Assembly: GCA_021793215.1 (NCBI GenBank) | Contig: JAJYTE010000013.1 | Coordinates: 1-57,476 of the forward strand | Direction of reading: 5' to 3' | Source: Bacillota bacterium | Lineage (GTDB): Bacteria > Bacillota > Sulfobacillia > JAJZYS01 > JAJYTV01 | DNA: 57,476 bases | In this document: positions 38,693 through 53,497 of the stretch, piece by piece | Position numbering within the stretch: the stretch's first letter is position 1 | How the letters are laid out: every line of letters begins with the position of its first letter | Program-made: the position numbers and the translations under genes | Notes under the pieces: generated by a model | Told to the model about the DNA's origin: nothing | The model's input: the letters and a program-made list of their open reading frames with translations, nothing else | The model's database searches: none

Positions 38693-39243
38693 GTCGTCGT
38701 GCCCTCCCCTTCGTGTGGCGCACGTTCGCTCGAGAGGCTCTCGCGCAGACGTCGGAGCGCCCGGTGCAACGTCACGCGCACCCAGACCGCCGACCTCCCG
38801 AGCAGAGTAGACGTCTCCGCGACCGACCGGTCCTCGATGATCCTGAGGATGAAGACCTGTCTCTGCGCGATCGGAAGGAGTCGTAGGCTCGCCTCCAGGT
38901 CGAGGCGCCCGAGGCCCACGTCTTCCGCTGCCTGCACGCTTTGGAGCCGTTCGGTCGATTCGCTCGGATCACTTCGCCTTCGCCGGAGGCTGTCCGCGAT
39001 CGCATGCTTCGCGATGGCGAAGAGCCATGTCCGCTCGGATGAGCGGCCGGCGAACCGGTCCCAGTTGCGCAGCGCGCCGAGGAAGACTTCCTGCACGACG
39101 TCCTGTGCCTCTGGGGAACTCCCGAGGCTGAACCGGGCGAACCGGTAGATCTCATCGCCGTAACGGCCAAAGAGCCGCTCCACCGCCTTGCCGGCGGTCT
39201 CATCACCCATCGCCTCCGCGGCGCGCCGGGCGGGTCGGATCAT
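38689..39243 (-). CDS. ECF-type sigma factor
   Basis: A 184-residue sigma-70 factor. Region 2 is AQDVVQEVFLGALRNWDRF and TWLFAIAKHAIADSLRRRR. Region 4 is IAQRQVFILRIIEDRSVAET and AVWVRVTLHRALRRLRESL. Its stop overlaps the start of the propeller protein gene. This is the third ECF gene in the window, each beside a membrane partner. Autoregulation and the target genes are unknown. The ATG at 39243 is used; the in-frame ATG at position 12 of the protein is an alternative. Confidence 0.88.
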   Translation of the reverse strand: MIRPARRAAEAMGDETAGKAVERLFGRYGDEIYRFARFSLGSSPEAQDVVQEVFLGALRNWDRFAGRSSERTWLFAIAKHAIADSLRRRRSDPSESTERLQSVQAAEDVGLGRLDLEASLRLLPIAQRQVFILRIIEDRSVAETSTLLGRSAVWVRVTLHRALRRLRESLSSERAPHEGEGTTT

Positions 39244-39449
39244 GCGTCACGATCTCACCCCCTCGCTTGGGTAGTCGTGTGATGGCAGCGAAGCGTTACA
39301 GCCGCCGTTCGCTTCGTGCCCAAGGTCTTCCCCTACGCCGCGGAGAGCTTGCGTCGACAGTTTGAGAGCCCGGACCCGCATGCGCCCGGGGGGGAAGTAG
39401 CGTTGATCCCTTTGAACGCCTCCTGCGGCACTGGAGCGCAGCAGCCGAG
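39244..39449. other. Intergenic region before the broken phosphotransferase
   Basis: About 200 bp. The right-hand part (from about 39369) reads open in the phosphotransferase frame and looks coding (DPFERLLRHWSAAAE), so the gene originally began upstream of ATG 39450. A run of seven G residues at 39388-39394 may hold a second indel: removing one G would put ATG 39380 in frame. Confidence 0.4.
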
Positions 39450-40155
39450 ATGGAGGCGCGTCTCGGAGGCGGAGTGCGGAACGATGTCCGCAGCGTTCGA
39501 CTCGCCGGGAAGAGGTTCGCCGCAAGACGTTCTGCCCGCCCGTCGCAGACTCTAGCCTGGGAGATCGAACTGCTGCTGCATCTTTCGCGCTGACGTGAGA
39601 GTCCCGCGTCCGCTCGAAAGCCGAGACGGGCGGTTCGAGGTCGAAGGCCTCTCGGTCTTCGAGTGGCTGGAAGGGGATCCGCCGCGTACGGAACGCGATT
39701 GGCGAGAGGTCAGCGGGACGCTTAGCCTCGTGCACGATGCGACGCGCGGGTGGGCGCAGCGTCCTGGCTTCGCTTCCTCCATCGACCTTCTGACACAAGA
39801 TCATGCTGGCGATGTGGACCTTGCCGCGCTTCCGAACGAGGTGGCTGACCTATGTCGGGCGGCCTGGCGCAAGCTGGTGGGCCATCCGACCTCCGTCGTC
39901 CATGGCGACCCGAACGCAGGGAACATCCGCATGACGCGGGAGGGCGTTGGACTCTTGGACTGGGACGAGGCGAGGGTAGATGTCTCGCTCTTGGACTTTT
40001 CCGACATCCCTGGCGGCGATGGAGACATGTCCGAGACGGTGCTGGCCGATGTTCGCGCTGCCGGGGACGCCTGGGAGGTCGCGAGCGCCTGGGTGAAAGA
40101 GCCCGAGTATGCGCGCCGCCGACGGGACGAACTCGAGTCCCGGACGCGGGGATGA
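39450..40155 (+). pseudogene. Frameshifted aminoglycoside/choline-kinase-like phosphotransferase
   Basis: Frame 1 from ATG 39450 encodes LGGGVRNDVRSVRLAGKRF and ends at TGA 39591 after WEIELLLHLSR. Frame 2 continues from about 39589 with ADVRVPRPLESRDGRFEVEG and runs to 40155. It contains the kinase catalytic loop VVHGDPNAGNIRM and the metal motif LLDWDEARV. Removing one base near 39588 would rejoin a normal APH-family protein. This is most simply a decayed gene, with sequencing error as the alternative. The substrate, when intact, is not predictable. Confidence 0.75.
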
Positions 40156-40589
40156 AGGCGTGACCAACGGTACAAAGCTGTTCGTGATCCCGGGTTTAGG
40201 TACGGCGGTATGTACCCGCAGCGAGCATCAGGCAGGCGAGAGGTGCGGCAGGCGCAAGCCTGCCGCCGCTTCGTTTCCCGTGCCTAGCCCAACTTGCCTG
40301 CCACTCGCTGGAGCGGGACATCCAACGTATCTGTCGTGCGGCTGACTCTCGGTCACGGGGTTCCTTGGCAAACCGGCAGTTCTTGATCTGCTCCAGGAAC
40401 CGTTGCCGGTCTTCTCTGGAAGATTGGTCCTGCGGCCGTACATCCGACCGACGGCTCTCGTGCTGCCCGGAATGAGCACGCTACAGCGCGTCGCTGATCT
40501 ACGCATCCACTGGACGGATCCCGCATGTATAAATAACCAGTGGATACCGTCTCGGTTACGAAGCCACCGAGCTGGCGTAAGGGTCTCGC
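40156..40589. other. Gene-poor region downstream of the TnpB/Cas12-like gene, with two stem-loops
   Basis: No ORF is supported here. Two strong inverted repeats are present: GCGGCAGGC-GCAA-GCCTGCCGC at 40245-40266 (9-bp stem, tetraloop) and ATCCACTGG ... CCAGTGGAT at 40505-40513 / 40537-40545 (9-bp stem, 23-nt loop). The second lies about 45-85 nt beyond the stop codon of the minus-strand TnpB/Cas12-like gene, where TnpB-family guide RNAs are usually encoded. The first may be a terminator. A functional RNA is possible but not shown. Confidence 0.45.
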
Positions 40590-42338
40590 TCAGTCGTTCG
40601 CCGCAGCCCAGCGAACCAGATGGCGGCAAGTGTTCAGTTCCGGGTCAAAGAGCTGGCTGCACGTTGGACAGCGCACGACCTCCAGGCCGCCTCCGCCGTG
40701 AGTGTCGTAGCAGGCAAAGTGCTTCCACACTTGCAGACCTCGCGGTGTCACGTACACATGTCGGTCCAATTTGGCGAATGCCTGCTCCAGGGCACGCTCT
40801 AGGGTGAACACAGCTGCAATCTGCGTCAGCCTTCTCGTGGACATCCGCAAGAAATCGTCCCGGATCTCAGGTACCGGACGCTCTCTAAGCCTGTGCAAAA
40901 CCGGCTTGTGGATCACGATGCGGCCATAGAGGCCGGCGTTGCGGTGTGCAAATGTTCGGTATAGATCTACGCGGAATCCGATGCACTTCTCGCGCAGATT
41001 CGCTTCCCACTCCAGCAGCCGCTTGTCCTTCCGCCGCCAGGCCTCCAGGCCTGAGAAGCCTGTCTCGTCGCCAGGGAAACGGTGCGAACGCCAGTGCTCA
41101 GCGACCGCTCCAAGCGTCTCTGGCGCGTCCTTCTGTCGGTCGTTCAACGCTTCGGCAAGCCAGGATGGGACGGGACCGCTATGCTCGCCGCACCATGCTT
41201 CGACCTCTTGCGCTGCTGCGCGATACTCCTTCGCACGGGTTGAACGCAATCGGTCGAGCGTGCTGAAACGTTCCAACAGCGGATTCGGCAATACGAGTTC
41301 CTCGTAAGAGCCGTCGGAACCCAGGCATACCGCAACTCGCAAGCCAGACGCCTTGGATTCCCACCCGAGGGCGATGGCCAGGGTCCGGGTGGGCGCAACG
41401 TCAGCCACCTGCGTGCAGTCGGTATGGACCGTGAGTGAGAGCGCGTAGACGAAGTTGGTTCCGACACGCCGCCGAAGGACCTGGGCAGCCTTGATCACAC
41501 CGTCTTCCGGCAGCGGGCGATGCATCACCATCGGCAGCTCCAGCCAGACCGGATCACGTCCCCTCGATGCGACGCGGATCCGCACACTGGTTCGCGAGCG
41601 CCTTCTCCGCGCACCTCGGGGGATGTGCTCCCACCCCGAAAAGTCCACCGGGCCAATCTGCAACATGCGGCTCCACTTCGAGTCTTGGCTGAAGAGGCGT
41701 AGCATCGTGCACGGAGCGTCTGCGTCCTTTGCGTCATGCTGCAGCTGTACAGCCCAGAAACCCGTCCCGTCGAAGGCCCGCTCGTGTAGTGCGCCGGGTC
41801 TCCCTGCCTTCGTCACGGACCGCTCCGCACGGCGTCTGGCGACTTCGTAGCGATCACGTGTCAGGAGCGAGTTCCCCCAGTAGAGCCCGCGCGCGGAGAA
41901 GTCGCCATAGACTACCCTTGCGGTCTCTCGCCGCCAAGCCTGGAGCGCTTCGATCTCCGTTCGGACATTGTCCCAGTGGGCGCCCTTGGCAGCGTAGAGT
42001 CGCTGCTGGAGGTGCCTGCGCTGTACCTCCATCACGGTTGCCTGCTCTCGCCACTCGCTAAGAACGGCCTCTCTATCGCGCCTCGCCTGCTCGATCCGCG
42101 TTCTTGCCGCGGCAATGTCGTCAAGTGTCCTCTCCAGTTCCAGAGCGATCTGCTCGACCGCCTCGACGGAGCGCCAGATCGCACGCTCGCGTTGCCGGTA
42201 TTCATGCTCGATCGCGACGAGCGCGTTCCAGTACTCCGTCTCCAGTGCGAGTTGCCGTTCGGCCTCGGCGGGGACCTCCACGGGCTGCCCGCAGCCGAAC
42301 CTATAGATCCGCGTCGCGCCGCCGTCTGTCGCATGCAC
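40590..42338 (-). CDS. TnpB/Cas12-like RuvC-fold protein, probably nuclease-dead
   Basis: A 582-residue protein. The first ~200 residues are coiled-coil-like and basic. The C-terminal half matches the RuvC core of TnpB and type V-U-like Cas12 proteins. At the RuvC-I position TLAIALGWESKASGLRVAV has Ala where the catalytic Asp is expected. At RuvC-II, YGRIVIHKPVLHRL has His where Glu is expected. At RuvC-III, CPTCSQLFDPELNTCRHL has Glu where the D-x-N-A-A Asp is expected. Only part of the zinc ribbon (CPTC plus one earlier Cys) remains. GTG 42338 follows AGGAGG at 9 nt. No CRISPR array or TnpA gene is adjacent. A guide-RNA-directed binder or repressor is inferred. The upstream fluoride riboswitch is unique in this context. 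Confidence 0.72.
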   Translation of the reverse strand: MHATDGGATRIYRFGCGQPVEVPAEAERQLALETEYWNALVAIEHEYRQRERAIWRSVEAVEQIALELERTLDDIAAARTRIEQARRDREAVLSEWREQATVMEVQRRHLQQRLYAAKGAHWDNVRTEIEALQAWRRETARVVYGDFSARGLYWGNSLLTRDRYEVARRRAERSVTKAGRPGALHERAFDGTGFWAVQLQHDAKDADAPCTMLRLFSQDSKWSRMLQIGPVDFSGWEHIPRGARRRRSRTSVRIRVASRGRDPVWLELPMVMHRPLPEDGVIKAAQVLRRRVGTNFVYALSLTVHTDCTQVADVAPTRTLAIALGWESKASGLRVAVCLGSDGSYEELVLPNPLLERFSTLDRLRSTRAKEYRAAAQEVEAWCGEHSGPVPSWLAEALNDRQKDAPETLGAVAEHWRSHRFPGDETGFSGLEAWRRKDKRLLEWEANLREKCIGFRVDLYRTFAHRNAGLYGRIVIHKPVLHRLRERPVPEIRDDFLRMSTRRLTQIAAVFTLERALEQAFAKLDRHVYVTPRGLQVWKHFACYDTHGGGGLEVVRCPTCSQLFDPELNTCRHLVRWAAAND

Positions 42339-42348
42339 AGCTACGTAC

Positions 42349-42391
42349 CTCCTGCTTCACGAGTCGGAACATCAGTCGATGTAAGCAGGAG
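42349..42391 (-). promoter_or_regulatory. RBS-sequestering stem of riboswitch A
   Basis: The minus-strand ribosome-binding region AAGCAGGAG(G) (plus 42349-42357) is perfectly complementary over 9 bp to CTCCTGCTT (plus 42383-42391), which is the 3' strand of the aptamer's P1 stem plus the following bases. Aptamer folding and RBS masking are mutually exclusive, so fluoride binding should switch translation ON. Confidence 0.7.
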
Positions 42392-42432
42392 TCGTCAGCC
42401 GTGCGGCGGTTAAAGGCGGAACTCCATCGCCT
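42385..42432 (-). ncRNA. Fluoride riboswitch (crcB motif), copy A
   Basis: On the minus strand the RNA reads GGCGATGGAGTTCCGCC, then AACCGCC, CGGCTGACGACTCCT, which follows the crcB consensus (GGcGAUGG, AACCGCC pseudoknot strand, GGCU-AUG-CUCCU), with ACG in place of AUG. P1 pairs GGAGTT with GACTCC. It begins 17 nt after the stop codon of the hyfB-like gene and ends about 45 nt before the TnpB/Cas12-like start codon. No independent promoter was found, so read-through from the hydrogenase-like operon is possible. Ligand: fluoride, by family knowledge. Confidence 0.85.
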
Positions 42433-42448
42433 TGCGGAACTGCCGGAA

Positions 42449-44419
42449 TCACAGGAGACCTGAGAGCTTGAGCCAGACGATCCCCCCCATCAGCACGACC
42501 ATGATGTACCCGAGGTAGTGGCTGAGGTGCCCTGTCTGCATGCTCTGGATGGCTTGCGCGGCGCGCCGTGCAGCCTGAAGGAGCGGTCCGAACACGTTTA
42601 CGAGCAGCCGGTCGGCCGCATCGGTATGCACCTCGACGGCATCTTCGCCGACGGTACGCGTACTCCGGTGGCGAATCACCGGAGCGAACGCCAGCCGTAG
42701 CGGCTGGGCGATTCCGTCGGCCGTCCATCCGTAGGACGAGACGTACTCTTCACCGCCGTTCCAAGGGGCCGGCACCGCCGCCCGACGTGGATTCGGGCGC
42801 AGCCAAAGCCACCGCAGCAGTGCGACAATCCCCATGATCCCGCCGCCAAACCAGAGGAGATCCCAAGGGGACGTCGCCGTGAACCCGCCGTCGGGGAAGA
42901 GAATGACGCCCTGGGCTCCCGGAAGTCCGGTGAACACACGACCGCCCAAGGAATCCAGCAGTGCTGTTGTGCCCGGGTGCGTGAACGTCGGAGCGATGAG
43001 TCCGCTGGCGCCAAGCGCCCTCGGCGAGGCGGCGGCAACCCATGGCACGATCCAGGTCGCGCCGACGCCTGCGAGCCAAGCGATGAGCGCACCCAGCGCC
43101 ATGCCAAGCGTCTCCCCAGCGCGGGGAGGCCCCGCTGGGGCAGTGCGCCTGGGCCCTAGGAAGATGGCCGCGTACCAGCGCAGGATCGCCGTCGCCCCAC
43201 CAGCGGTGACGAGGGCCACAACCAGAATCACAACAAGGAGTGCGGGCCGCAGGCTTGTGGAGGCACCCATGAAGATGCTCTCCGCCGCCATCCATTCGGC
43301 CAAGTAGCCGCCCGTCGGCGGCATCGCCATGAGGGCTGCACCTGCGAGCAGTGTCAGTCCCGCGGCCAGCGGAGCGGCTCTGAAGAGGCCACCCAGGCGG
43401 TTCATCTCGCGCGTGTCCGTCACCCGTTCGATCCAGCCGGAAGCGAAGAAGGCCGTGAACTTCGCTCCCATGTGCATCAGGAGGAGCGTGTAGGTGCTGC
43501 TGAGCGCAAGGGCCGCTGCGGCAGATTGCCCTGCGTCTGCAAAGACGTAGGAAAGCCCGAGACTGGCGAATGCGAGCCCGATCCACTCCACGGTCGAGTA
43601 GGCCAGCACTCGCTTGTGGTCATTGTCTACGATCGCGTGGATGACGCCGAGCAGTGCTCCCAAGAGCCCCAGGACGACCATTCCCCACGCGACCTGCAGC
43701 GGCGGCGGCGCCCATGCGAGCCAGCGCACAAGTCCCACCATGGCCACTGTCGTCGTAACGCCCGAAAGTGCGGCCGCGGCTGCGCCAGGCGCCTCGGGCT
43801 CCGCGAGCGGCAGCCAGAGTTGAAACGGGAAGAGTCCGGCCTTCGATCCGAGCCCGAGGATGCCCAGTACGGCGATGATGTCGGTAACTCCCGGAGATCT
43901 CAGCCCAGCTGACAGCAGAAGGGCGCCAAGAAGCAGTGCCGCAGCGCCCGCCTCGCTCATCACGAGCATCGCCCACCCGGAAACCGCCGCACGCTGACTG
44001 TTTCCTTGCGAGACCACCATTCCGTAGACGGCCACGGCGAGCACACCCCATGCCACCACCATCGCGAGCGGAGACGAAGATTCAAGGAATGCCGCAACGG
44101 CCACCCCAAGCCATGCAAGCGATACCCATTGCCCCTTGCCGAACTCCTTCGCCGCAAACACGAGGCCCGTCGTGAGGAGGAGGCCCTCGCCGAGGAGCCC
44201 CCAGAACCCGGCCCACGGCGTGAGGGCATAGGTCAGGGAGCCCGCCATCGTATCCACGGCCAACGCCGAGGTGTTGCCGGCGAGCGCGAGAATCAGCTGG
44301 ATACACAGGACGACGATCGTCGCAGACGCGAACACGGGCACGGATGCGCGGCGCCCACTCCACGCAACGAAACTCGCGATGGCCGCAAGTGCAAGCGCTA
44401 CGAGAAATAGGACCATCAT
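42449..44419 (-). CDS. HyfB/HycC-like antiporter-type membrane subunit
   Basis: A 656-residue NuoL/M/N-like subunit of a group-4 hydrogenase-type complex, with about 14 helices. Key lysine segments for ion translocation are GLGSKAGLFPFQLWLP and DNDHKRVLAYSTVEWIGL. The C-terminal cytosolic part contains WNGGEEYVSSYGWTADG and the closing helix region YLGYIMVVLMGGIVWLKLSG, which are typical of HyfB/HycC. ATG 44419 overlaps the HyfI-like stop (ATGA). It ends the six-gene operon. It should move protons or sodium ions, but whether it is driven by redox chemistry is unclear because the large subunit lacks its NiFe site. Confidence 0.88.
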   Translation of the reverse strand: MMVLFLVALALAAIASFVAWSGRRASVPVFASATIVVLCIQLILALAGNTSALAVDTMAGSLTYALTPWAGFWGLLGEGLLLTTGLVFAAKEFGKGQWVSLAWLGVAVAAFLESSSPLAMVVAWGVLAVAVYGMVVSQGNSQRAAVSGWAMLVMSEAGAAALLLGALLLSAGLRSPGVTDIIAVLGILGLGSKAGLFPFQLWLPLAEPEAPGAAAAALSGVTTTVAMVGLVRWLAWAPPPLQVAWGMVVLGLLGALLGVIHAIVDNDHKRVLAYSTVEWIGLAFASLGLSYVFADAGQSAAAALALSSTYTLLLMHMGAKFTAFFASGWIERVTDTREMNRLGGLFRAAPLAAGLTLLAGAALMAMPPTGGYLAEWMAAESIFMGASTSLRPALLVVILVVALVTAGGATAILRWYAAIFLGPRRTAPAGPPRAGETLGMALGALIAWLAGVGATWIVPWVAAASPRALGASGLIAPTFTHPGTTALLDSLGGRVFTGLPGAQGVILFPDGGFTATSPWDLLWFGGGIMGIVALLRWLWLRPNPRRAAVPAPWNGGEEYVSSYGWTADGIAQPLRLAFAPVIRHRSTRTVGEDAVEVHTDAADRLLVNVFGPLLQAARRAAQAIQSMQTGHLSHYLGYIMVVLMGGIVWLKLSGLL

Positions 44420-44937
44420 CCCACCTCACCCGCCGTGGCGCCGCGGCCGACGAGTGAGAGAAGACCGTCAAGCAGATCGTCCGGCGAGGGAGGACATCCA
44501 GGGACCCAGGCGTCCACCGGCACGATCTCTGCGAGGTTGCCCACAACGCCGGGGGCGCCGCGGAATACGCAGCCGTCGACGGCGCAGTCTCCAGTCGCGA
44601 CGACGAGCTTCGGGTTCGGCATCGCGTCGTAGGTGGCCCGGATCACAGGCACCATGGCGTCAGTAACGACTCCGGTGATCAGGAGAAGGTCTGCGTGTCG
44701 GGGCGAGGGGGTGAACGAAAAGCCGAAGCGGGAGAGGTCGTAGACTGGACTCCCAAGGAGGCCGATCTCCGATTCGCAGCCGTTGCAGGACCCCGCATCG
44801 AGGTGGCGGATCGCGAGTGATCGTGAGAAGAGCCGCGCGGGCACTCCTGTCTTCGCTGGCCGCGACCCTGCCCTACGCCGCAGCACGGAGGGACCCTTGG
44901 CAAGATTCACGATCCACCGGGGATAGAACACTGGCAT
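44416..44937 (-). CDS. HyfI/HycG-like [4Fe-4S] small subunit (NuoB-like)
   Basis: A 173-residue NuoB-type protein that binds one [4Fe-4S] cluster next to the large subunit. Cys ligands are in GSCNGCESEIGLL, ATGDCAVDGC and VPGCPPSPDD, so the cluster site seems intact even though the partner large subunit has lost its NiFe ligands. It is overlapped by the hyfB-like gene and preceded by the large-subunit gene with a 6-bp gap. It sits in the middle of the operon, as in hyf/hyc-type clusters. No ferredoxin-type HyfA/HyfH gene is present. Confidence 0.9.
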   Translation of the reverse strand: MPVFYPRWIVNLAKGPSVLRRRAGSRPAKTGVPARLFSRSLAIRHLDAGSCNGCESEIGLLGSPVYDLSRFGFSFTPSPRHADLLLITGVVTDAMVPVIRATYDAMPNPKLVVATGDCAVDGCVFRGAPGVVGNLAEIVPVDAWVPGCPPSPDDLLDGLLSLVGRGATAGEVG

Positions 44938-44943
44938 TCCCTC

Positions 44944-46290
44944 CTAGAGGTCGAGCGACGCGACGGCGAGGCTGAAGGACGCGTCGATGATCGGGAAATC
45001 CTGCAGGATGTTGTGATTGGCCACGGCGAGCGGCACCGCGACCCAGTTGATGCTTGACGCAGTCCTGATCTGGCACGTTTCAACGCGGCCGCCGCCCACG
45101 GCGACCCGATAGAAGAGGCGGCCGCGCGGCGACTCGACGAGGCCGTAACCTAGGCCATTGCCGAAGTCCAAGGGCGGTGGCGAGCTCGCCGCCCCGCACC
45201 CACCCGCCCTGCGCAGCATGGCGATCGACTGGGTGATCTCCTCGCAGCGCACGAAGTAGCGCCCGTACGCATCGCCCGTAGTCCAGCCGGCTGGACGGCG
45301 GCCGTAGCAGAGATCGGGGTACCAGGCGTAGGGGAGATCCCATCGCACGTCTTCGTTGCAGCCGGCCGACCGACCGACGACGCCGACGAGTTCGAGTGAT
45401 TTGCTGGGAATGCCGCCCGCCCCGTGCAAGCGGTCGAGGAAGGAGTTCGTGCGGTCGAGGGAACGCCGCACGGCCACGAACTGACGTTCGACTTCCTCAA
45501 CGAAGGACGGCAGCTCTCGGGAGGTGTCTCGAATGCCCCGTCGCCATCCTCCTGGGCTGACGACGCCGCGCAGGTAGCGATGTCCCGTCCACTCCTTGCC
45601 GAAGCGCAGAACGGTCTCGCGCAGGCGATAGAGGTCAGCGGCGGCGACGACTGTACCCGTTGCTGCCGCAAGCGACGCGAGGTCCCCAAGGTGACTGTGC
45701 AGGCGTTCGAGTTCGGCAAGTGCGCTCCGAAGAACGGAAGTGCTTTCACCGACCGCGAGACCCAGCGCATCCTCCACCGCCAGGCTGAAGGCAAGCGCGT
45801 GCGCGACCGTCGAGGTGCCGGTTACCCGCTCTGCGATCTCCAGTGCTGCGCCGACCTCAGCCCCCTGCATCAACCGGGCGACGCCACGGCGCTTGTAACC
45901 CCGCCGCAACGTGAGGGCGTGGATCTCGTCGCCGAGGACGTCCATCTCGTAACGGAGCGCCTCCGCGACATCGGCGCGCACCGGCCCGAGTGGCACGACG
46001 TGCATGCCCTCGCCGATGACTTCCCGCTCGGCAGCCGCAGGCTCTAAGGCTTCGCATCCGAAGTCCTGCTCCTCCACGAAGCGCAGGCTCGGGAAGCCCC
46101 GTTCGCTCGGTCGCGCGTGCGGCCCGGGGCCCACATCGATTTCGGTGATCTCTCCCTCGCCCTTGCGCCAAAGCACTACCCGCACGCTGCGGTGGTCCGG
46201 GAAGACGTGCAGGACCTGGTTCCCATCCTTGACAGCCCGCTGGCAGAGGGACAACAAAGAGACCTCTGTCAGTTCCTGCGTGTGATCCAC
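44944..46290 (-). CDS. HyfG/HycE-like large subunit without NiFe ligands (Ehr-like)
   Basis: A 448-residue fusion of a NuoC-like N-terminal domain and a NuoD/hydrogenase-large-subunit-like domain. In true NiFe hydrogenases the first Cys pair lies in ERxCGxC; here the site reads AERVTGTSTVAHALAF, both Cys replaced by Thr. The C-terminal DPCxxC pair is absent: the chain ends in SLAVASLDL at the place where ASLDPC is expected. The protein therefore cannot hold the NiFe centre and needs no maturation protease. It resembles energy-converting-hydrogenase-related (Ehr) complexes. GTG 46290 follows AAGGAGGG at 6 nt. Confidence 0.88.
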   Translation of the reverse strand: MDHTQELTEVSLLSLCQRAVKDGNQVLHVFPDHRSVRVVLWRKGEGEITEIDVGPGPHARPSERGFPSLRFVEEQDFGCEALEPAAAEREVIGEGMHVVPLGPVRADVAEALRYEMDVLGDEIHALTLRRGYKRRGVARLMQGAEVGAALEIAERVTGTSTVAHALAFSLAVEDALGLAVGESTSVLRSALAELERLHSHLGDLASLAAATGTVVAAADLYRLRETVLRFGKEWTGHRYLRGVVSPGGWRRGIRDTSRELPSFVEEVERQFVAVRRSLDRTNSFLDRLHGAGGIPSKSLELVGVVGRSAGCNEDVRWDLPYAWYPDLCYGRRPAGWTTGDAYGRYFVRCEEITQSIAMLRRAGGCGAASSPPPLDFGNGLGYGLVESPRGRLFYRVAVGGGRVETCQIRTASSINWVAVPLAVANHNILQDFPIIDASFSLAVASLDL

Positions 46291-46306
46291 GGTCGTCCCT
46301 CCTTGC

Positions 46307-47647
46307 CTAATGCGGAAGCGGCCAGTGGAGCAGCCACGGGACCGCAAAACCGGAGATGAGAAGCAGGGTCGACAAGACCACCGTCGGCACAGTTTCGAAC
46401 GCCGCCTCCGGAGTGGGGCGTATCCCGGTCGTGGGCTGGTACCAGAGGCGCGGTGCACGGTAGGCGATCGCGATGAATCCAAACGCCAGCAGGGCAATCA
46501 TCAGAATCGCGGGAACGGCTGTGGCGCGGCTCGCGAGTCCGCCCATCGCGACAAGCCATTCGCTGAAGAATGGCCCAAGCGGGGGGACTCCCGCGAGCGC
46601 AGCGAGCCCGAGCAGGAGGCCGCCGCTCCCCCAAGGCATCCCTTCGTGCAACCTGCCGATCTTGTCCCCGTCGACCGTGCCGTATCTGGTCTGGATCGCC
46701 CCGCTGACGAAGAAGCACTGGCTCTTTGCAAGTCCATGGGTGATCACGTGCAGCAGTGCGCCCAGAAGGCCGATGCCGCCGAATCCCATTCCGAGCGCGA
46801 TGATCCCCATGTGTTCTACCGAGGAGTAGGCCAGCAGCCTCTTGAGGTTGCGCTGGCCCGCCATCGCCCCGACGCCGACGAGCAGAGACAGGAGCCCTAA
46901 AGCGATCAGCAGATCGTTCGGCCAGGCGGCGCCGTGAGTCAGGGTCCTCACCTTGTCCAGCCCGTCGTGCAGCACCCAGAGGATGCCGGCGAGTTCCGCA
47001 CCGGAAAGCAGGGCGGAAACGGGCGCCGGCGCCTGCGCGTGGGCGTCTGGAAGCCATGTGTGAAGGGGCACGAGTCCCGCTTTGGCACCGAATCCAACCA
47101 GCAGCAGGACCGCGCCGGCGGCCACTGTTGCAGGACCGCCTCCGATCAGGACTACGCCGGCAAGGGCGATGAGTCCGCCCATCCCTGCGAGCATGAGATA
47201 CTTCCATGCCGCCTCGAATGGGTGGGCGCCCGGCTTCAGTCCGACGAGCGCCACAGAGCTTAGCGTCGTCGCCTCGACGGCAACCCAGAGGGCAAGCAGC
47301 GACCAGTGCTCACCGAGCGCGAAGAGACTGGCCGTGAATACGCCGAGCAGCAGGAAGTAGGAAGACTGCAGCCTTTTGGGCCACGCATCCTCGATCCCGC
47401 CGGCCAGGTAGCTCGGCGAGGCGAAGAACGCGACTGCTCCAAGAACCGCAACGAGCGCCTGGTAGGCATCGCCCCAGTCGCGGGTCGAGTATGCCGCCCA
47501 GGCGAAGGCGACTGCCAAAAGAGCAAGCAGGATGGACCCGATGTTGCCTCCGGACCTCTGTTGCCAAGCGGCGAACAGTCCCAGGACGAGTGCGAGCACG
47601 ACCCCAATGAGCCCGAGCTGATGAGTGATGGGTAGCATGCCGGCCAT
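46307..47647 (-). CDS. HyfF-like antiporter-type membrane subunit (NuoL/MrpD-like)
   Basis: About 446 residues with roughly 13-14 helices, of the NuoM/N and MrpD type. GAKAGLVPLHTWLPDAHAQA holds the conserved Lys and the WLPDAH signature; GQRNLKRLLAYSSVEHMGII holds the second Lys; LLHVITHGLAKSQCFFVSGA holds a further Lys near helix XII. It is the second ion-translocating subunit of the complex. ATG 47647 overlaps the HyfE-like stop (TAATG); ATG 47638 is a second start. The frame is open further upstream, but a start there would run far into the hyfE-like gene. Confidence 0.88.
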   Translation of the reverse strand: MAGMLPITHQLGLIGVVLALVLGLFAAWQQRSGGNIGSILLALLAVAFAWAAYSTRDWGDAYQALVAVLGAVAFFASPSYLAGGIEDAWPKRLQSSYFLLLGVFTASLFALGEHWSLLALWVAVEATTLSSVALVGLKPGAHPFEAAWKYLMLAGMGGLIALAGVVLIGGGPATVAAGAVLLLVGFGAKAGLVPLHTWLPDAHAQAPAPVSALLSGAELAGILWVLHDGLDKVRTLTHGAAWPNDLLIALGLLSLLVGVGAMAGQRNLKRLLAYSSVEHMGIIALGMGFGGIGLLGALLHVITHGLAKSQCFFVSGAIQTRYGTVDGDKIGRLHEGMPWGSGGLLLGLAALAGVPPLGPFFSEWLVAMGGLASRATAVPAILMIALLAFGFIAIAYRAPRLWYQPTTGIRPTPEAAFETVPTVVLSTLLLISGFAVPWLLHWPLPH

Positions 47648-48240
47648 TACCCCCTGAGGTGCGTTAGGTGGTCCGCCGTCGGAGGCCCAGAGAACTCCGA
47701 CGTTCCTCGGCGCTGGAGCCATGCGAGCAGGGCTCCAAGAATCAGAACTTCCACAACAGCAAGTGCCTCGGGCAATCCGGGGACGGACGGATACTGCAGC
47801 ATGAGCAGACTCACCCCGAGTTCGGCTCCGACCAGAAGGAGCGCATGTACCCAGATGTCCCGTCGCATCATCGCGAGCCAGAGTGCGGTGCTCAGCACGC
47901 CAACGGCCAGGCCTGAACTACCGAGGGTCCACCAGGAAAGAGTGAGCGCCAGCACCGATCCGAGCACCAGAGACGGTGTCCCGCGCGTCGCCATGCCGTA
48001 CTCGGCGTGCATCCGGCGCGCAAGCAGCGCTGGTACAGCGAACACCTTCACGACCAGCCACAGGGCCGCGAGGACGAGCCAAGCGGAATCCAACCGTCCG
48101 ACGTAGACTGCGGCCGCGACCGTTGCGAGGGCGGCGATGCGATACCACCCCACCGCGCTCTGACTTCTGCGAGCGATCGCCAGAAGGACTAGGGAGAGCC
48201 ATACGGTTAGGGCAACGACTGCAAGACTGCCGTCTGTCAC
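47647..48240 (-). CDS. HyfE-like membrane subunit (NuoK-related)
   Basis: A 197-residue hydrophobic protein with five or six helices, in the position and with the size of HyfE. LVVKVFAVPALLARRMHAEY and LPEALAVVEVLILGALLAWL agree with the family. HyfE is NuoK-like and contributes to the membrane arm of group-4 complexes. GTG 48240 follows GAGGAGG at 7 nt. Stop TAA overlaps the following HyfF-like ATG. Placement between the NuoH-like and NuoL-like genes supports the call. Confidence 0.78.
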   Translation of the reverse strand: MTDGSLAVVALTVWLSLVLLAIARRSQSAVGWYRIAALATVAAAVYVGRLDSAWLVLAALWLVVKVFAVPALLARRMHAEYGMATRGTPSLVLGSVLALTLSWWTLGSSGLAVGVLSTALWLAMMRRDIWVHALLLVGAELGVSLLMLQYPSVPGLPEALAVVEVLILGALLAWLQRRGTSEFSGPPTADHLTHLRG

Positions 48241-48252
48241 AAGCGTTCCTCC

Positions 48253-49185
48253 TCAAGAGATGGCGACGGCCAGTGCAGCCAGCGCCGCAATAGCGACGGA
48301 GACAGTGAGGTACTCGGAAATGCGAAGCAAGCGGAGCTTGGCGAAGGAAAACTCCACGAGCACCACCAACAGTCCGACAATGATCAGCTTCGCTGCCGTC
48401 GCAAGAGTCGCCAATGCGATCAGGGCGGGCGCGAGCGAAGCCGCGAGGCCCCAGGGTGTAGCGAGGACGTTGACCAGGATGACCCCAAGCACTGCGAACT
48501 TCATCCAGCCGCCCCACTCGTAGAGGGCGAGATCAGTACCGCTTGCCTCAAACGTTCTGTTGGGATCGATCAACGAAAGTTCCTGGCTGGAATCTGGGTT
48601 GTCGACGGGCAGTCGGCCAGCTTCCGCCAACACCAGCAGGAACCATGCAACGATGATCAAGCCGTGGCTGGGCGTAAGCAGGGCGGGTCCGCCGAACACC
48701 TGGTTCACGACAAACGGGATCGTCGCCCTGCCAACCGCAGCGGCGGTGAAGAGTGCTGCCAAGGTAAGGGGCTCGGCCAGGGTGCCGATGAAGCGGACGC
48801 GGCTGACCGCGATCGACGAGTAAGGACTACCCGCATCCGCGGATGCCAACAGCAGCACGAGTCCTGCACCGCCAAGGATCATCCCGCCTCCCAGCATGTC
48901 TGCCATGAACGCCAACGGCAGTGGGAATGTCGTCAGCACCGGGATCAGGAGCGCGACGATCAACGGTGCGGAGAAGTAGACGACGGGAGCGATCGAGCGG
49001 ATCGCGGTCGTCTCGGTGTTCCAGACCGTTTCTTTATGGAACCACTTGTAAAGATTTCTGTATGGCTGCCATATCGGGGGCCCGATTCGTCGCATACCGC
49101 GCGCCTTTAAGCGGTCCATGATGCCTTTGAGAAGAGGAGCGAAGAGAAGCACGAATAGGACCTGGAGGATCTGTGCAATTAACAC
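48253..49185 (-). CDS. HyfC/HycD-like membrane subunit (NuoH-like)
   Basis: First gene of the operon; 310 residues, about eight helices. GPPIWQPYRNLYKWFHKETV (the cytoplasmic loop near the quinone/cluster site) and VLAEAGRLPVDNPDSSQELS (with the conserved Glu and PVDNP) are typical of the NuoH/HyfC/EchB group. GTG 49185 follows AAGGGGG at 6 nt. A fluoride riboswitch and a strong promoter lie directly upstream, so expression is expected to rise with intracellular fluoride. This subunit couples the peripheral arm to the antiporter-like subunits. Confidence 0.9.
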   Translation of the reverse strand: MLIAQILQVLFVLLFAPLLKGIMDRLKARGMRRIGPPIWQPYRNLYKWFHKETVWNTETTAIRSIAPVVYFSAPLIVALLIPVLTTFPLPLAFMADMLGGGMILGGAGLVLLLASADAGSPYSSIAVSRVRFIGTLAEPLTLAALFTAAAVGRATIPFVVNQVFGGPALLTPSHGLIIVAWFLLVLAEAGRLPVDNPDSSQELSLIDPNRTFEASGTDLALYEWGGWMKFAVLGVILVNVLATPWGLAASLAPALIALATLATAAKLIIVGLLVVLVEFSFAKLRLLRISEYLTVSVAIAALAALAVAIS

Positions 49186-49190
49186 AAAAG

Positions 49191-49236
49191 GCCCCCTTCA
49201 CAGGGGCATAGAAATACCCCTGCCGAATTCGACAGG
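49191..49236 (-). promoter_or_regulatory. Expression platform of riboswitch B
   Basis: Three hairpins compete. (1) GCCCCT-GTGA-AGGGGGC (plus 49191-49207) masks the RBS AAGGGGG and is followed by CCTTTTG, so it could also terminate. (2) A 9-bp stem at 49201-49222 (minus CAGGGGTAT / ATGCCCCTG) frees that RBS. (3) CCTGTC-GAATTC-GGCAGG (49219-49236) joins the aptamer's 3' strand to the base of hairpin 2. Ligand-bound aptamer should favour hairpin 2 and thus ON. Confidence 0.65.
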
Positions 49237-49290
49237 AGTCATTAGCCGTGGTTGGCGGTTTGGGGTTTCCCAGGCGGATCTCCATCGCCT
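49231..49290 (-). ncRNA. Fluoride riboswitch (crcB motif), copy B
   Basis: On the minus strand the RNA begins GGCGATGGAGATCCGCCT, has a variable hairpin GGGAAACCC, then AACCGCC and CGGCTAATGACTCCT, an excellent fit to the fluoride-aptamer consensus. It starts within a few nucleotides of the transcription start predicted from the upstream promoter and ends about 46 nt before the HyfC-like start codon. From the literature I recall crcB motifs being reported in front of formate-hydrogenlyase-type genes; this is a family-level memory, not a check made here. Confidence 0.92.
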
Positions 49291-49298
49291 TGGGTTGA

Positions 49299-49327
49299 AT
49301 AATAGGGAAGCCCCGACAAGATGTCAA
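49299..49327 (-). promoter_or_regulatory. Near-consensus sigma-A promoter of the hydrogenase-like operon
   Basis: On the minus strand TTGACA (49327-49322), a 17-bp spacer, and TATTAT (49304-49299). The start site is expected near 49292, just in front of the fluoride aptamer. Confidence 0.85.
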
Positions 49328-49717
49328 TGGCCCGGCCGTTCGCTAGGCCGAAGTGTGCGGGGAGGAGGTTCGACAAGGGAAACGAGGAGAGCACTGCTGC
49401 TTCCGGTGGCTTCGCAGCGTATGCATCGGACGTGCTCTCGTCGTCTCCATCGTCAAAGTTCCTCCCGCCAGTTTCAGTCTGGAACTGGACAATTCGAGTT
49501 CGGATGGGTCGGCCAAAACGCACCGACTTGACGAAGAGACGCCAAGGATCGGAGAGAGACGATCGGGGGCAAAGTTGGCCCCATGTTGGAAGGCTCCGAC
49601 CGCTACCTCTGCGCAAGTTTTGAACATGCCGAGGGCCTCGGCGTGCGGGTTGACACGAACTATCCGACAGCTTGACCGCAACAACCTAAGCAGATCGAAA
49701 AAATGTGCTCCACACTC
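49328..49717. other. Region without a confident gene
   Basis: About 390 bp upstream of the hydrogenase-like promoter. Short open frames occur on both strands, but none has a recognisable family or a good ribosome-binding site. A fragment at about 49583-49675 (plus, RYLCASFEHAEGLGVRVDTN) looks protein-like but is only 31 codons and has no context. Base composition is lower in GC than the surrounding operons, consistent with decayed DNA. Confidence 0.4.
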
Positions 49718-50242
49718 CTACCAGAACGCAGCGAACCCGCGCAAGACCATCCTCTTCTCAAGATCTAGGACCGTAAGGTCAGGGAACCCGATCTCGCCCC
49801 ATTCTCTTCTACCTAATCGACGGGTTAGGAGATGGCTTAGCAGAACCGTGATGATTCGTCCGTGGGCGACAACGGCAAGATGGCCTTCTGCCCGAAGGCA
49901 CAGATCCGAGATACACGACACAATGCGGTAACGTGCCGCATCGTAGGGCTCAAAGGCTTCGTCATCGGCGCCTTCGAGGTAGTTACCGACACGGAGTCTG
50001 AATGCAGCGTTGGATAGATGCCCTGCGTCGAACCGGAGTTCACCCAGTTTTTCTTCGACCCCTGTGCGTGCGCCGATCTCCGCGGACATGACTTGGGCAG
50101 TTTCTTGGGCTTTGGGTTCGGTACTACTCCATATTGTGTTCACCCCAATCCAGGACTCACTGCGCGCCTCAAGGACCACTGGCATTCGGATCGGGCTGCG
50201 AGCGTCACCCCGGGGCACTGATATGTGCCCCGGGACAAACAC
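49718..50242 (-). pseudogene. Truncated histidine-phosphatase-family gene
   Basis: The C-terminal part is typical: IWSSTEPKAQETAQVM, then LRFDAG and HLAVVAHGRIITVLLSHLL with the second catalytic His. The N-terminal RHG motif, which carries the phospho-accepting His, is missing, and the sequence just before residue 30 fits the family better in another frame (QWSL instead of PVVL), suggesting a frameshift near 50185. The gene's 5' end runs into a 10-bp palindrome and IS-end-like sequence at 50209 onward, so it was probably broken by an insertion. No function expected. Confidence 0.65.
50209..50234. repeat. Perfect palindrome at the broken phosphatase end
   Basis: CCCGGGGCAC-TGATAT-GTGCCCCGGG, a 10-bp perfect inverted repeat, is followed directly by GGACAAACACTATTGTAGGGAC. 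It marks the border between the truncated phosphatase and the IS-like sequence. Confidence 0.7.
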
Positions 50243-50288
50243 TATTGTAGGGACTTTGGCGATCCTGCTCGGGACGGCTTACGAGCCC

Positions 50289-50339
50289 GGGACACACTTT
50301 ACAAAGTGCGGACAAACATTGTTGTCAGGCTCCAACTTC
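50289..50339 (+). mobile_element. IS-end-like repeat, copy 1
   Basis: The block GGGAC-ACTTTACAAAG-CGGACAAACAT-TTGTCAG-TCC-ACTTCG (spaces mark variable dinucleotides) recurs at 51351 in the same orientation. Multiple GGACAAAC/TTTACAA motifs in a row are characteristic of ends of IS21/IS481-type elements. No transposase gene is present, so these are remnants or a MITE. Confidence 0.6.
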
Positions 50340-50341
50340 GT

Positions 50342-50365
50342 GGACCCTGACAATTATGTTGGTCC
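50342..50365 (-). mobile_element. IS-end-like repeat, inverted copy facing copy 1
   Basis: GGACCCTGACAATTATGTTGGTCC is an inverted version of the copy-1 core (50310-50333), 20 of 24 positions matching, with an 8-bp gap. The two ends therefore sit head to head. Confidence 0.55.
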
Positions 50366-50575
50366 CTCGACGGACCGTCAAACCCGCTACCTCGCACCCC
50401 TACGTTGTCGTAATTGATCGGTCAAAGTCTGTCCTTCGGGCGTGTCGGACGACTTCCTCTACAATAACGTTTGTCCTTGGGAGCCGTTGCAGTGATTCGC
50501 GCGGAGCGGATCGACTGGGACCGGTCGACCACGGTGCTGCGGCAACGGGTCGCGGACCGCGCGCCAGCCGCAGTA
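50366..50575. other. Gene-free stretch between IS-like repeats and the reductase gene
   Basis: About 210 bp. It contains one more GTTTGTCC-like motif (about 50467-50475) related to the repeats. No gene, promoter or RNA was recognised. Confidence 0.35.
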
Positions 50576-51118
50576 CTACACCGATGACTGCTTGCAGACG
50601 CGGAAGCGAAGGATGGTGACGGCTCCCGACCGCGTGCTGTCGAGCGGCTCTAGGTCTACCCTCGCGAGACCTGGGGAGGAGTAGAACCGGGTGCCGTCCC
50701 CGAGCAGCACCGGTATGACATACACCAGGATCTCGTCCACAAGCCCCCGCTGCAGGCACTGACGGGCCACGTCAGCACCGAGGATTTCGAGGTTCCTCCC
50801 GCCCGCGGCGTCCAGTGCCGCGGCGACCGCTTCCCCGATGTCACCGGTGAGGAACGTAACCGCCGGGTCCGGCGGGACCGGCGGCTCATGGGTCAGGACG
50901 AACTCGGGTCCGGAGAAGGGGTATTCGGTCTCGCCAGCGTCCATCGCTTTGCCCACCTCGTAGGTCCGCCGGCCCATGAGCATGGCGCCGGTGGCCGCCG
51001 CGATCTCGGGGAACTCGTCTGGCGTCACGGAGTCGAAGATCCAGTCCATCGCGTGACCTGGACCGGCGATAAAGCCGTCGAGTGACATCGACCGGTTCAC
51101 TACCACCTTGCCACTCAC
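50576..51118 (-). CDS. Dihydrofolate-reductase/RibD-C-like reductase
   Basis: A 180-residue protein of the RibD C-terminal/YyaP family. VVNRSMSLDGFIAGP is the family's first strand and loop, and GAMLMGRRTYEVG is the NADPH-binding turn. FSGPEFVLTHEPP and NLEILGADVARQCLQRGLVD follow in the usual order, and VIPVLLGDGTRFYS closes the domain. GTG 51118 follows AAGGAGG at 10 nt. It lies between two copies of IS-end-like sequence and may have arrived with them. Exact substrate unknown; it is not a full bifunctional RibD (no deaminase domain). Confidence 0.82.
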   Translation of the reverse strand: MSGKVVVNRSMSLDGFIAGPGHAMDWIFDSVTPDEFPEIAAATGAMLMGRRTYEVGKAMDAGETEYPFSGPEFVLTHEPPVPPDPAVTFLTGDIGEAVAAALDAAGGRNLEILGADVARQCLQRGLVDEILVYVIPVLLGDGTRFYSSPGLARVDLEPLDSTRSGAVTILRFRVCKQSSV

Positions 51119-51330
51119 TTCACGACAACCTCCTTGCATCGGCGCCACTGGAAACACCCTGCCGCCCAACAACCGAGCAGCTACAACCGCAAGGCATACA
51201 ACGGACACCCAGAAGGATGGGTCAGTCGACCACACTCATGCCATGTGCACTCAATGCCCGAGTCGACGCGCTCCAGCCATATCCTACCACGCGACAGAGC
51301 GCAAGGGAGGTAGGCCCTGCCGTGGCGCCA

Positions 51331-51401
51331 GGGACAAACTTTACAAGCTAGGGACGTACTTTACAAAGCACGGACAAACATACTTGTCAGAGTCCACTTC
51401 G
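51331..51401 (+). mobile_element. IS-end-like repeat, copy 2 with tandem motifs
   Basis: GGGACAAACTTTACAAGCTA, then GGGACGTACTTTACAAAGCA, then GGACAAACATACTTGTCAG: three motifs at about 20-bp steps. The last ~50 bp match copy 1 (50289-50339) in the same direction. No other gene or element was recognised between 51119 and 51421. Confidence 0.6.
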
Positions 51402-51421: not shown

Positions 51422-53224
51422 CTACTCCACCGTCACGCTCTTCGCGAGGTTCCTAGGTTGGTCGACGGAGCAGCCTCGCGCCTCGGCGACCGTTACCGCC
51501 AGAAGCTGCAGCGGAAGTGCCCCGATCAGGTACGCCGCAGTGGCATCCTGGATCGGCAGCCCGATGTGCAGCGTGCCCCTGAGGTCCGCGCCGACGGACA
51601 CTCCATAGGCGCCGCGGGCGACGGCCTCTGAGAGCGAACTGCTCAGCTTCGTTGTGTGGCGGGGGTCGGTCGAACAGACGATCACAGGCACCCGATCATC
51701 GACGAGCGCCAGCGGGCCGTGCTTCAGTTCTCCGGCCGCGAAGGCCTCGCTCCAGATGTACGAGAGCTCCTTCAACTTGAGAGATCCTTCGCGGGCGAGG
51801 CTTACGTCCTGGCCGCGGCCGAGGAAGATCACTCCCGGAGCCTTGGCGCAGCGCTCCACGAGATCGTCCGGTAGGAGGAACTCCGCGAGGAAATCCTCGG
51901 CGATGATCGGTGCGGCGCGCAGGGCGGCGAGGTGGTCCGGGTCGTACCCGCGGCCGTGCGCGGCGGCGAGCGCTGAGACCAGTAGGTCGAGCGCAACCGC
52001 CTGGGTCGTGAACGCTTTGGTCGACGCGACGGAGATCTCGGTTCCAGCCCGCAGGTCGAAGACGAAGTCGCTCTCGCGCGCAATCGTGGAGCCGGGGGCA
52101 TTCACGAGGCCGAGCACGCGCGCCCCGAGGCTTTGCGCGTGACGGAGCGCCGTCAGGGTGTCGATCGTCTCGCCCGACTGGCTCACCGCCACTGCGAGGG
52201 TTCCAGGCTCGAGGAAGCTCCGGGTATCGCGAAACTCGCTGGCGAGATCGGCTGCCGCGGGGATCTGCGCGAACTCCAGCAGGCGCTCTGTGGCCATCTG
52301 GCTCGCGTGCAGCGACGACCCCATCGCGAGGAACTGCACGCGCTTGACGCTGCGCAGCGCGCCTTCGGTCAGGCCCGCGTCCGTGAGGTCGACGGCGTCC
52401 GCGTCCCCAAGGCGCCCGCGCATCACGGAGCGCCAGGCGGCCGGCTGCTCGAAGAGCTCCTTGACGTAGAAGTTGCGGTGGTGTCCGGAGTCGGGAAGAT
52501 CCCCGGAGTCGGAGATCTCGTGCCCGACCTTGCGAACGGGGGCGAGGTCCTCAAGTCGAAAGACGTCGACCCGACCCGGCCAGAGGTCCGCGATCTCGCC
52601 GTCGTCGAGGTAGATGCAGCGCGAGAGCCACGGCGCGAGCGCGATGGCCCCCGACGCTACGAACACCTCGCTGTCGGTGTAGCCGATCGCGATCGGGCTC
52701 GTCCGCCGCACCGCGCACATGTGGTTTCCGTCCCGAAGGTCGAAGGCGAGTAGCGCGTAGGCGCCCTCGCAGCGCCCCGCGACTGCCTGAAGGCGGTGCA
52801 GGAGGTCGCCCTCCGCCTCCTCCAGGAGGTGCGCGATCAGCTCGGAGTCGGTCTCGGATCGCAGGACGTGCCCGCGGGCCGAAAGTTCCTCCCGCAGCGC
52901 GGCGGCGTTCTCGATGATGCCGTTGTGGACGACGGCGATGCGCCCCTCGCAGTCGAGATGTGGATGGGCGTTCTGGTCCGTGACACCGCCGTGCGTCGCC
53001 CAGCGCGTGTGGCCGATCCCGATCGACGCCGGAGGCGGAGGGTTCCTGGCCACCTCGTCCTCGAGTACCCGCAGTGGCCCCGCACGCTTCGCGAGGTGGA
53101 TGCCCCTCGCCGTACCGAGCGCGATGCCGGCGGAGTCGTACCCGCGGTACTCGAGACGTTTCAGCCCACCGAGGAGTACCTCCGCAATGGACTGCGGACC
53201 TACGTATCCCATGATCCCGCACAT
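51422..53224 (-). CDS. glmS: Glutamine--fructose-6-phosphate aminotransferase (isomerising)
   Basis: A 600-residue enzyme that makes glucosamine-6-phosphate for peptidoglycan. The N-terminal glutaminase starts MCGIMGYVG with Cys1 as nucleophile and shows RGYDSAGIA and HTRWATHGG. Two SIS domains follow: LAMGSSLHASQMATERL, VAVSQSGETIDTLTAL and the C-terminal SIS pocket. It ends PRNLAKSVTVE as usual. The frame is open further upstream, but ATG 53224 encodes the required N-terminal Cys. A glmS ribozyme lies in the 5' leader, giving control by glucosamine-6-phosphate. Confidence 0.97.
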   Translation of the reverse strand: MCGIMGYVGPQSIAEVLLGGLKRLEYRGYDSAGIALGTARGIHLAKRAGPLRVLEDEVARNPPPPASIGIGHTRWATHGGVTDQNAHPHLDCEGRIAVVHNGIIENAAALREELSARGHVLRSETDSELIAHLLEEAEGDLLHRLQAVAGRCEGAYALLAFDLRDGNHMCAVRRTSPIAIGYTDSEVFVASGAIALAPWLSRCIYLDDGEIADLWPGRVDVFRLEDLAPVRKVGHEISDSGDLPDSGHHRNFYVKELFEQPAAWRSVMRGRLGDADAVDLTDAGLTEGALRSVKRVQFLAMGSSLHASQMATERLLEFAQIPAAADLASEFRDTRSFLEPGTLAVAVSQSGETIDTLTALRHAQSLGARVLGLVNAPGSTIARESDFVFDLRAGTEISVASTKAFTTQAVALDLLVSALAAAHGRGYDPDHLAALRAAPIIAEDFLAEFLLPDDLVERCAKAPGVIFLGRGQDVSLAREGSLKLKELSYIWSEAFAAGELKHGPLALVDDRVPVIVCSTDPRHTTKLSSSLSEAVARGAYGVSVGADLRGTLHIGLPIQDATAAYLIGALPLQLLAVTVAEARGCSVDQPRNLAKSVTVE

Positions 53225-53304
53225 AAGCAAAACACCCCTTCTGCGGGCATGGTCCGCTCCCCATAGGGGAGACGGCCATGAACGTAGAGGGATGCATGTA
53301 GGCA

Positions 53305-53447: not shown

Positions 53448-53497
53448 TAGTGGTTGCCGCTTCCCTATGCTGTTGCGGGACCCTGCCCGTTGGCGCA

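Follow-up and report, generated by a model that had tools for sequence, protein, structure and literature searches.

How a protein complex built on the plan of a membrane-bound hydrogenase can persist without its hydrogenase site, and why it should stand behind a riboswitch that senses fluoride, are questions raised by a 57,476-nucleotide stretch of DNA from a Bacillota bacterium of the GTDB lineage Sulfobacillia (GenBank assembly GCA_021793215.1, contig JAJYTE010000013.1), referred to here as the window. On its minus strand, from position 49185 to position 42449, six consecutive and closely packed hyf-like genes follow one another in the order HyfC/NuoH, HyfE, HyfF, large subunit, small subunit and HyfB, with a fluoride aptamer upstream of the first. 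The answer developed below, to which we give a probability of roughly 0.5, is that their products may form a fluoride-induced, Mrp-like translocator of ions or protons whose ancestry lies in the energy-converting hydrogenase-related (Ehr) complexes, a group reportedly treated by Coppi in 2005 and by Marreiros in 2013.

The large subunit (44944..46290, minus strand) is a NuoD/HycE/HyfG-like protein that matches PF00346 (E 3.6e-25), PF00374 and the HycE and MbhL entries of the PDB. When it is aligned with Escherichia coli HycE and HyfG, the four positions of the nickel-iron (NiFe) ligands are found to be occupied by Thr157, Ser160, Ala and Ser, leaving none of the four cysteines, and the cysteines at these aligned positions are replaced in all 21 members of the clade to which the protein belongs. 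An earlier note on this DNA had already described a large subunit without NiFe ligands, and in this it was right, but it had placed threonine at both positions of the first pair, the second of which is Ser160, and had the protein end before the last pair, a site that is in fact reached (“PIIDASFSLAVASLDL”) with Ala/Ser in place of its cysteines. HypD, without which no NiFe center is assembled, was found neither in the 97.7%-complete genome to which the window belongs nor in its genus, so that no NiFe center can be made in this genome. With the ligands replaced and HypD absent, hydrogenase activity can be ruled out within the limits of what a sequence shows. The quinone site of complex I is likewise altered. 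In Thermus thermophilus Nqo4 this site includes His38 and Tyr87, whose equivalents in the alignment are Ala and Gly, a difference that also separates the complex from respiratory complex I.

Other parts of the peripheral arm have been retained. The NuoB/HyfI-like small subunit (44416..44937, minus strand; PF01058, E 5.6e-29) keeps the four cysteines of its [4Fe-4S] cluster, C51, C54, C118 and C148, which are conserved in 20–21 of 21 relatives, in agreement with what the earlier note had reported of these ligands. The two former NiFe motifs of the large subunit are among its best-conserved stretches (mean conservation 0.85 and 0.87 vs 0.63 across the protein), and the cavity therefore appears to have taken a new shape and not simply to have drifted. 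The structural comparison with NuoD and HycE that the earlier note had proposed bears out the family assignment: an AlphaFold model of the large subunit (mean predicted local distance difference test score 82) best matches E. coli HycE (7z0s), followed by the NuoD subunits of complex I.

Within the phylum, three classes of large subunit can be distinguished by the motif at the former first ligand pair. True hydrogenases carry CGxC, a Cys-less group of Ehr proteins carries SGDE, and the class to which the window belongs carries TGTST. Maximum-likelihood analysis gathers the TGTST class into one clade (support 97/88, rising to 100/100 once the divergent L094 is removed) and places the SGDE class in a separate one (97/100). 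The Ehr-type identity suggested earlier is thus upheld, with the large subunit placed in a single supported clade apart from both the SGDE Ehr proteins and the true hydrogenases. Gene order follows the same division: HyfC comes first and HyfB last in the TGTST loci, whereas the SGDE and NiFe loci begin with HyfB and carry an extra stretch between the large and small subunits. The six-gene order, the riboswitch and the former active-site motifs are shared across many families and, by one contig label, with Actinomycetota. The SGDE class (L009, L023–L033), typified by the motif SGDE..FAN and a C-terminal NLSYAGND, is itself widespread in the phylum. One further locus (L092, 9160–9410) contains a divergent pair of hyf-like complexes with a fluoride aptamer apiece; in the second, the large subunit shows a different Cys-less motif, VDGTAAFAH.

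The association with fluoride is equally consistent. The aptamer upstream of the complex (49226..49298, minus strand) matches RF01734 at 44.1 bits (E 5.6e-9), and it and a second aptamer in the window, described below, both exceed the Rfam gathering cut-off of 34 bits. It overlaps a terminator-like hairpin, ACTCCTGTCG/CGGCAGGGGT, with a T-rich tail (49206..49239, minus strand); as the aptamer's 3' strand doubles as the 5' arm of this hairpin, aptamer and terminator are mutually exclusive. Among relatives, a fluoride aptamer on the same strand lies just upstream of the operon at 20 of 20 operon starts at which the region upstream of HyfC is visible, 19 from the TGTST clade together with the second complex of L092. 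Most of these aptamers are Rfam matches above the cut-off; those of L044, L037, L096 and L097 were found by a consensus pattern, the last three falling below the cut-off in the genome search. The leaders also carry the hairpin that overlaps the aptamer and its T-rich tail, a scan showing a clear stem in 19 of the 20; in L037 the hairpin is not the best in the scan, and the same layout can be read in its leader. None of 15 SGDE or NiFe outgroup loci has a fluoride aptamer within the 9–16 kb examined, a contrast that chance does not account for. From the architecture of these leaders, which is the customary one for switches of this type, we infer that transcription of the operon would be switched on by fluoride.

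The genes found beside the complex in relatives fit this regulon, so that the link to fluoride drawn in the earlier note stands on the aptamers and terminators, their absence from the outgroup and the company the operon keeps. MutS-like, enolase and DUF190 genes adjoin the complex in these relatives, enolase being a classic target of fluoride. Elsewhere in the window genome, two tandem MutS-like genes (L038, 2106–5338, on contig C36) stand behind a weak fluoride aptamer of 24.7 bits, and a MutS-like pair of the same kind in L039 has an aptamer above the cut-off. In the window genome, fluoride aptamers above threshold occur only at the operon of the complex and at a neighboring Cas12m gene. The idea that this genome has no other fluoride exporters was considered and rejected, as two crcB genes and one CLC gene were found; none of the three has a fluoride aptamer.

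The earlier note had called the complex complete. All six genes are indeed present, but by comparison with E. coli Hyf the subunits HyfA, HyfD, HyfH and HyfJ are missing, and HyfH is the ferredoxin-like subunit that delivers electrons, a loss that had been overlooked. In the nine loci of the clade that were scanned, and likewise over the full length of the window, no open reading frame carries the ferredoxin-type C..C..C...C motifs of a 2[4Fe-4S] protein, and the possibility of a hidden ferredoxin subunit in the operon was rejected on the result of this motif scan. A ferredoxin-like reading frame with two such motifs is present between the large and small subunits in both outgroup loci checked. 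Judged by their gene content, the TGTST-class complexes are without the usual electron input, having neither a ferredoxin-like nor an NADH-input subunit. With HyfH and the quinone-site residues both missing, no normal electron path remains.

The membrane arm has been kept in larger part. The HyfC/NuoH-like subunit (48253..49185, minus strand; GTG start; PF00146, E 2.7e-22) retains the equivalents of NuoH E157, D213 and E220 in 20 of 20 sequences. The HyfF-like antiporter subunit (46307..47647, minus strand; PF00361, E 1.5e-42, with matches to NCBIfam HyfF models) retains the channel Glu and Lys and the Glu of transmembrane helix (TM) 12. In the HyfB-like antiporter subunit (42449..44419, minus strand; PF00361, E 3.7e-26), the Lys and the TM12 Glu are retained. 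Between HyfC and HyfF lies a HyfE-like small membrane protein (47647..48240, minus strand), recognized by its position in the operon and its conservation within the clade; no Pfam or NCBIfam family matched it. In the five subunits tested (HyfE was left out), ratios of nonsynonymous to synonymous substitution (dN/dS) of 0.08–0.25 indicate purifying selection.

How such a complex might act under fluoride stress can be outlined as follows. Fluoride would fold the first aptamer and so withdraw its ACUCC strand from the overlapping terminator, allowing the operon to be transcribed. At low pH, fluoride enters cells as hydrogen fluoride (HF), which then releases a proton and fluoride inside. The complex would move ions or protons to restore cytoplasmic pH and ion balance once HF has entered and dissociated, with the retained peripheral arm gating or coupling translocation, so that its working principle would be nearer to that of an Mrp antiporter than to that of a hydrogenase. 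The suggestion of the earlier note that ions or protons are exported when fluoride stresses the cell fits the channel residues retained; translocation itself, with its ion and driving force, and the part played in the cell's physiology are a matter of inference only. Several observations weigh against this picture. HyfC lacks the acidic residues E216 and E218 of NuoH throughout the clade, and the TM5 Glu of HyfB has become Gly in the window's own family (7 of 7), so that the channel is not intact throughout. The retained [4Fe-4S] cluster suggests that some redox chemistry remains. The pair of crcB genes and the CLC gene, moreover, mean that the complex is not the only conceivable defense of this organism against fluoride.

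The cluster is the natural starting point for a different explanation, in which a soluble carrier (ferredoxin, flavodoxin or similar) passes electrons directly to it and the reduction of a small molecule, taking place in the former NiFe/quinone cavity, powers the export of ions. Retention of the cluster cysteines in nearly all members, the high conservation of the reshaped cavity motifs and the precedent of Mbx-type hydrogenase-related complexes, which are redox enzymes (PMC6349859), speak for such a redox-driven pump, but no subunit for electron input exists, no partner oxidoreductase is conserved beside the operon, and the NiFe and quinone residues have both gone; we regard it as unlikely, if deserving of serious attention. 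That the complex itself exports fluoride or HF, coupled to protons or cations, seems more doubtful still. The strict presence of the switch at every operon start would be explained, as would the strong switch on the complex and none on crcB in the window genome, and some genomes that bear the complex have no crcB match, including the fairly complete G308 and G309. The subunits are nevertheless translocators of protons or cations by homology, with no anion-selective family among them, and the window genome has its two crcB genes and CLC.

It might finally be supposed that the operon is a degenerate remnant, a hydrogenase without its active site that is on its way out, given that the catalytic residues and HyfH have gone and that one channel Glu is lost in the window's family. 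This is scarcely credible. The low dN/dS values and the conservation of the motifs led to its rejection, gene order and riboswitch are conserved with those motifs across many families, and intact orthologues under selection in 21 loci count against it as well. The reading as a fluoride-induced, Mrp-like translocator is the one that we prefer.

Directly beyond the genes with which the earlier note was concerned, and overlooked there, lie a second fluoride aptamer and a gene for a Cas12m-like protein. The second aptamer begins 8 nucleotides past the HyfB stop codon (42379..42440, minus strand) and, at 55.5 bits (E 1e-12), is stronger than the first at 44.1; it occupies the same place in all five related Cas12m loci. 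In its expression platform (42348..42391, minus strand), the aptamer strand CTCCTGCTT pairs over 9 base pairs with AAGCAGGAG, masking the Shine-Dalgarno sequence of the Cas12m gene. This pairing (CUCCUGC with GCAGGAG in the window) reaches at least 7 base pairs in five of five loci, and because it sequesters the Shine-Dalgarno sequence, fluoride is predicted to allow translation of Cas12m.

The protein itself (40590..42338, minus strand; 582 amino acids) finds Cas12m entries of the PDB by phmmer (23vw at E 4e-58, 8pm4 and 8hhl) and the Cas12u1/Cas12f models of PADLOC (E 1e-98); a model of medium confidence gives 8hhl, 8hio and 8pm4 as its top Foldseek matches. By alignment, the catalytic Asp of its RuvC domain has become Ala and the Glu has become His, and in the three intact proteins known from these loci Ala takes the place of the Asp, with either His or Tyr where the Glu would stand. 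The dN/dS of the gene is 0.16–0.23. The arrangement of complex, aptamer and Cas12m is found in five genomes of the family (that of the window, G302, G306, G299 and G301) and is absent in G303; three of the five Cas12m copies are intact and two (in L039 and L043) are damaged. Beside Cas12m, the 3' flanks can be read at four loci, and as far as they extend they contain no array of clustered regularly interspaced short palindromic repeats (CRISPR); no Cas1 was found in the window genome. More distant homologues in G058 and G173 do have CRISPR arrays.

What follows the gene instead is a lone element that resembles the repeat of a Cas12m CRISPR RNA (crRNA), recognized by its similarity to type V-M repeats (40549..40581, minus strand, just 3' of the stop codon). 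It agrees with the V-M repeats of G058 and G173 at 17 of 24 positions, the best match among about 115,000 window positions. A 30-nucleotide element after the Cas12m stop is conserved in all four readable loci, and compensatory pairs occur in both helices of the scaffold, evidence that is modest given eight related sequences. By our own reading, the scaffold agrees with the published layout for Cas12m2 in its unpaired A, the G opposite A(-2), the 6-base-pair helix and the GAC end (PMC10442227). Directly after it comes the candidate guide GGTATCCACTGGTTATT (40532..40548, minus strand), whose first 13 nucleotides (GGYATCCACTGGT) agree, except at one position, among three species; G302 differs.

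Targets of this candidate guide were sought in several ways. It has no other match within the window, 11-mer matches to it across the genome occur at about the control level, and a 12-nucleotide match in a nuoM-like gene of the genome was set aside as being at chance level; the guide of L090 is too rich in guanine and cytosine for a search of this kind. A 14-nucleotide match to the guide start, following TTC, was observed on another contig of the same genome (L148, contig C73, position 12751), the number of hits being near control. It lies inside a conserved gene for a membrane protein to which no Pfam family corresponds and has orthologous near-matches in G299 and G306, and is a lead only.

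From these features it is possible, and tentatively our preferred account, that a nuclease-dead, domesticated Cas12m, encoded on the same fluoride-induced transcript as the complex, translated under a fluoride switch of its own and supplied with a single built-in guide RNA, serves as a fluoride-inducible, RNA-guided regulator of transcription beside the ion translocator. The protein could instead be an ordinary type V-M defense effector that stands by chance behind a duplicated fluoride switch. Its inactive RuvC site is no obstacle to this, as Cas12m normally binds without cutting and RuvC triads vary (PMC11013384, PMC10442227), and the damage to two of five copies points the same way. That explanation nonetheless seems improbable to us in view of the missing arrays at the four readable flanks (with arrays present for the homologues of G058 and G173), the absence of Cas1, the synteny and the fluoride switch in all five loci, and a guide start that is conserved between species.

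Parts of this system have precedents. In 2014, every Sulfobacillus examined was reported to have Ehr complexes that lack NiFe motifs and had no known function, the Ehr subunit having six syntenic genes alongside (nuoH, nuoL, HyfE and HyfB-like among them), with no mention of fluoride (PMC4378227). The complex of the window resembles Ehr complexes in its group-4-like large and small subunits, its antiporter-like and NuoH-like membrane subunits and its want of NiFe motifs; the window's clade differs from Ehr complexes generally in being fluoride-switched, in lacking a ferredoxin-like subunit and in having HyfB at the end of the operon. The SGDE Ehr clade, in contrast, has another gene order and no fluoride switch, and its ferredoxin motif is retained in the single locus that was checked. 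Subunits B, C, E, F, G and I are homologous to those of E. coli hydrogenase-4 and formate hydrogenlyase (Hyf and Hyc), which unlike the window's complex have the NiFe cysteines and the A, D, H and J subunits; nor is HypD encoded in the window genome. With the Mrp antiporters the complex shares NuoL/M/N-like antiporter subunits without a redox catalyst, and it differs from them in its NuoB/NuoD-like peripheral arm with an iron-sulfur cluster, an arm that the MrpA-G operon does not encode.

On the side of fluoride, fluoride aptamers (the crcB motif) were described as preceding “formate hydrogen lyase” genes, mutS and transporters, often with overlapping terminators, in a passage that does not itself mention the missing NiFe site of the “hydrogen lyase” (Weinberg 2010, PMC2864571). 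The Cas12m arrangement likewise resembles known systems in part. It shares with type V-M a nuclease-dead protein of the Cas12m fold and a crRNA-like scaffold, and differs in having a single scaffold and no array beside the effector. With the TldR RNA-guided repressors (PMC13418256) it has in common one guide of its own, adjacent to the gene; nuclease residues are lost in both, but the closest kin of the window's protein is Cas12m, not TnpB. Translation predicted to be under fluoride control sets it apart from both. A full-text literature search, from which subscription papers were mostly excluded, returned nothing that links Ehr complexes with fluoride switches and no description of a fluoride-controlled Cas12m. 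As both the lack of NiFe motifs in Ehr complexes and the occurrence of fluoride switches before “formate hydrogen lyase” genes had been published earlier, the greater novelty lies in the arrangement around Cas12m.

Some details of the gene calls and surroundings remain to be given. The true start of the large subunit, giving 448 amino acids, is the GTG at 46290, which a Shine-Dalgarno sequence (AAGGAGG) precedes, in place of a TTG further up the open frame. For HyfF, the probable start is the ATG at 47647, which overlaps the HyfE stop codon as TGATG; the frame is open up to 47722. Across 36605–51235, guanine-plus-cytosine (GC) content at third codon positions is mostly about 0.75, vs 0.84–0.95 in most flanking genes, which suggests that this segment, with the complex and Cas12m, was acquired or is differently expressed. 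Elsewhere in the window, a glmS ribozyme (53308–53458, minus strand; 69.9 bits) lies upstream of a glmS-like gene (51422–53389), near which two 56-nucleotide direct repeats, 80% alike and about 1 kb apart, occupy 50279–50334 and 51341–51396.

A fluoride switch at every visible operon start gives the Ehr complexes, hitherto without an assigned function, a condition under which they can be tested, and the proposed role would, if true, be the first physiological setting for an Ehr-type complex. The Cas12m neighbor suggests that regulons for ion stress can draw in proteins derived from CRISPR systems and place them under riboswitch control, and would, if our account of it is true, be to our knowledge the first Cas12-type regulator controlled by a riboswitch. 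More broadly, the clade shows how much complex I can shed, including its catalyst, its quinone site and its electron input, with the ion-translocating arm still under selection, and thereby bears on how chemistry is coupled to pumping in complex I.

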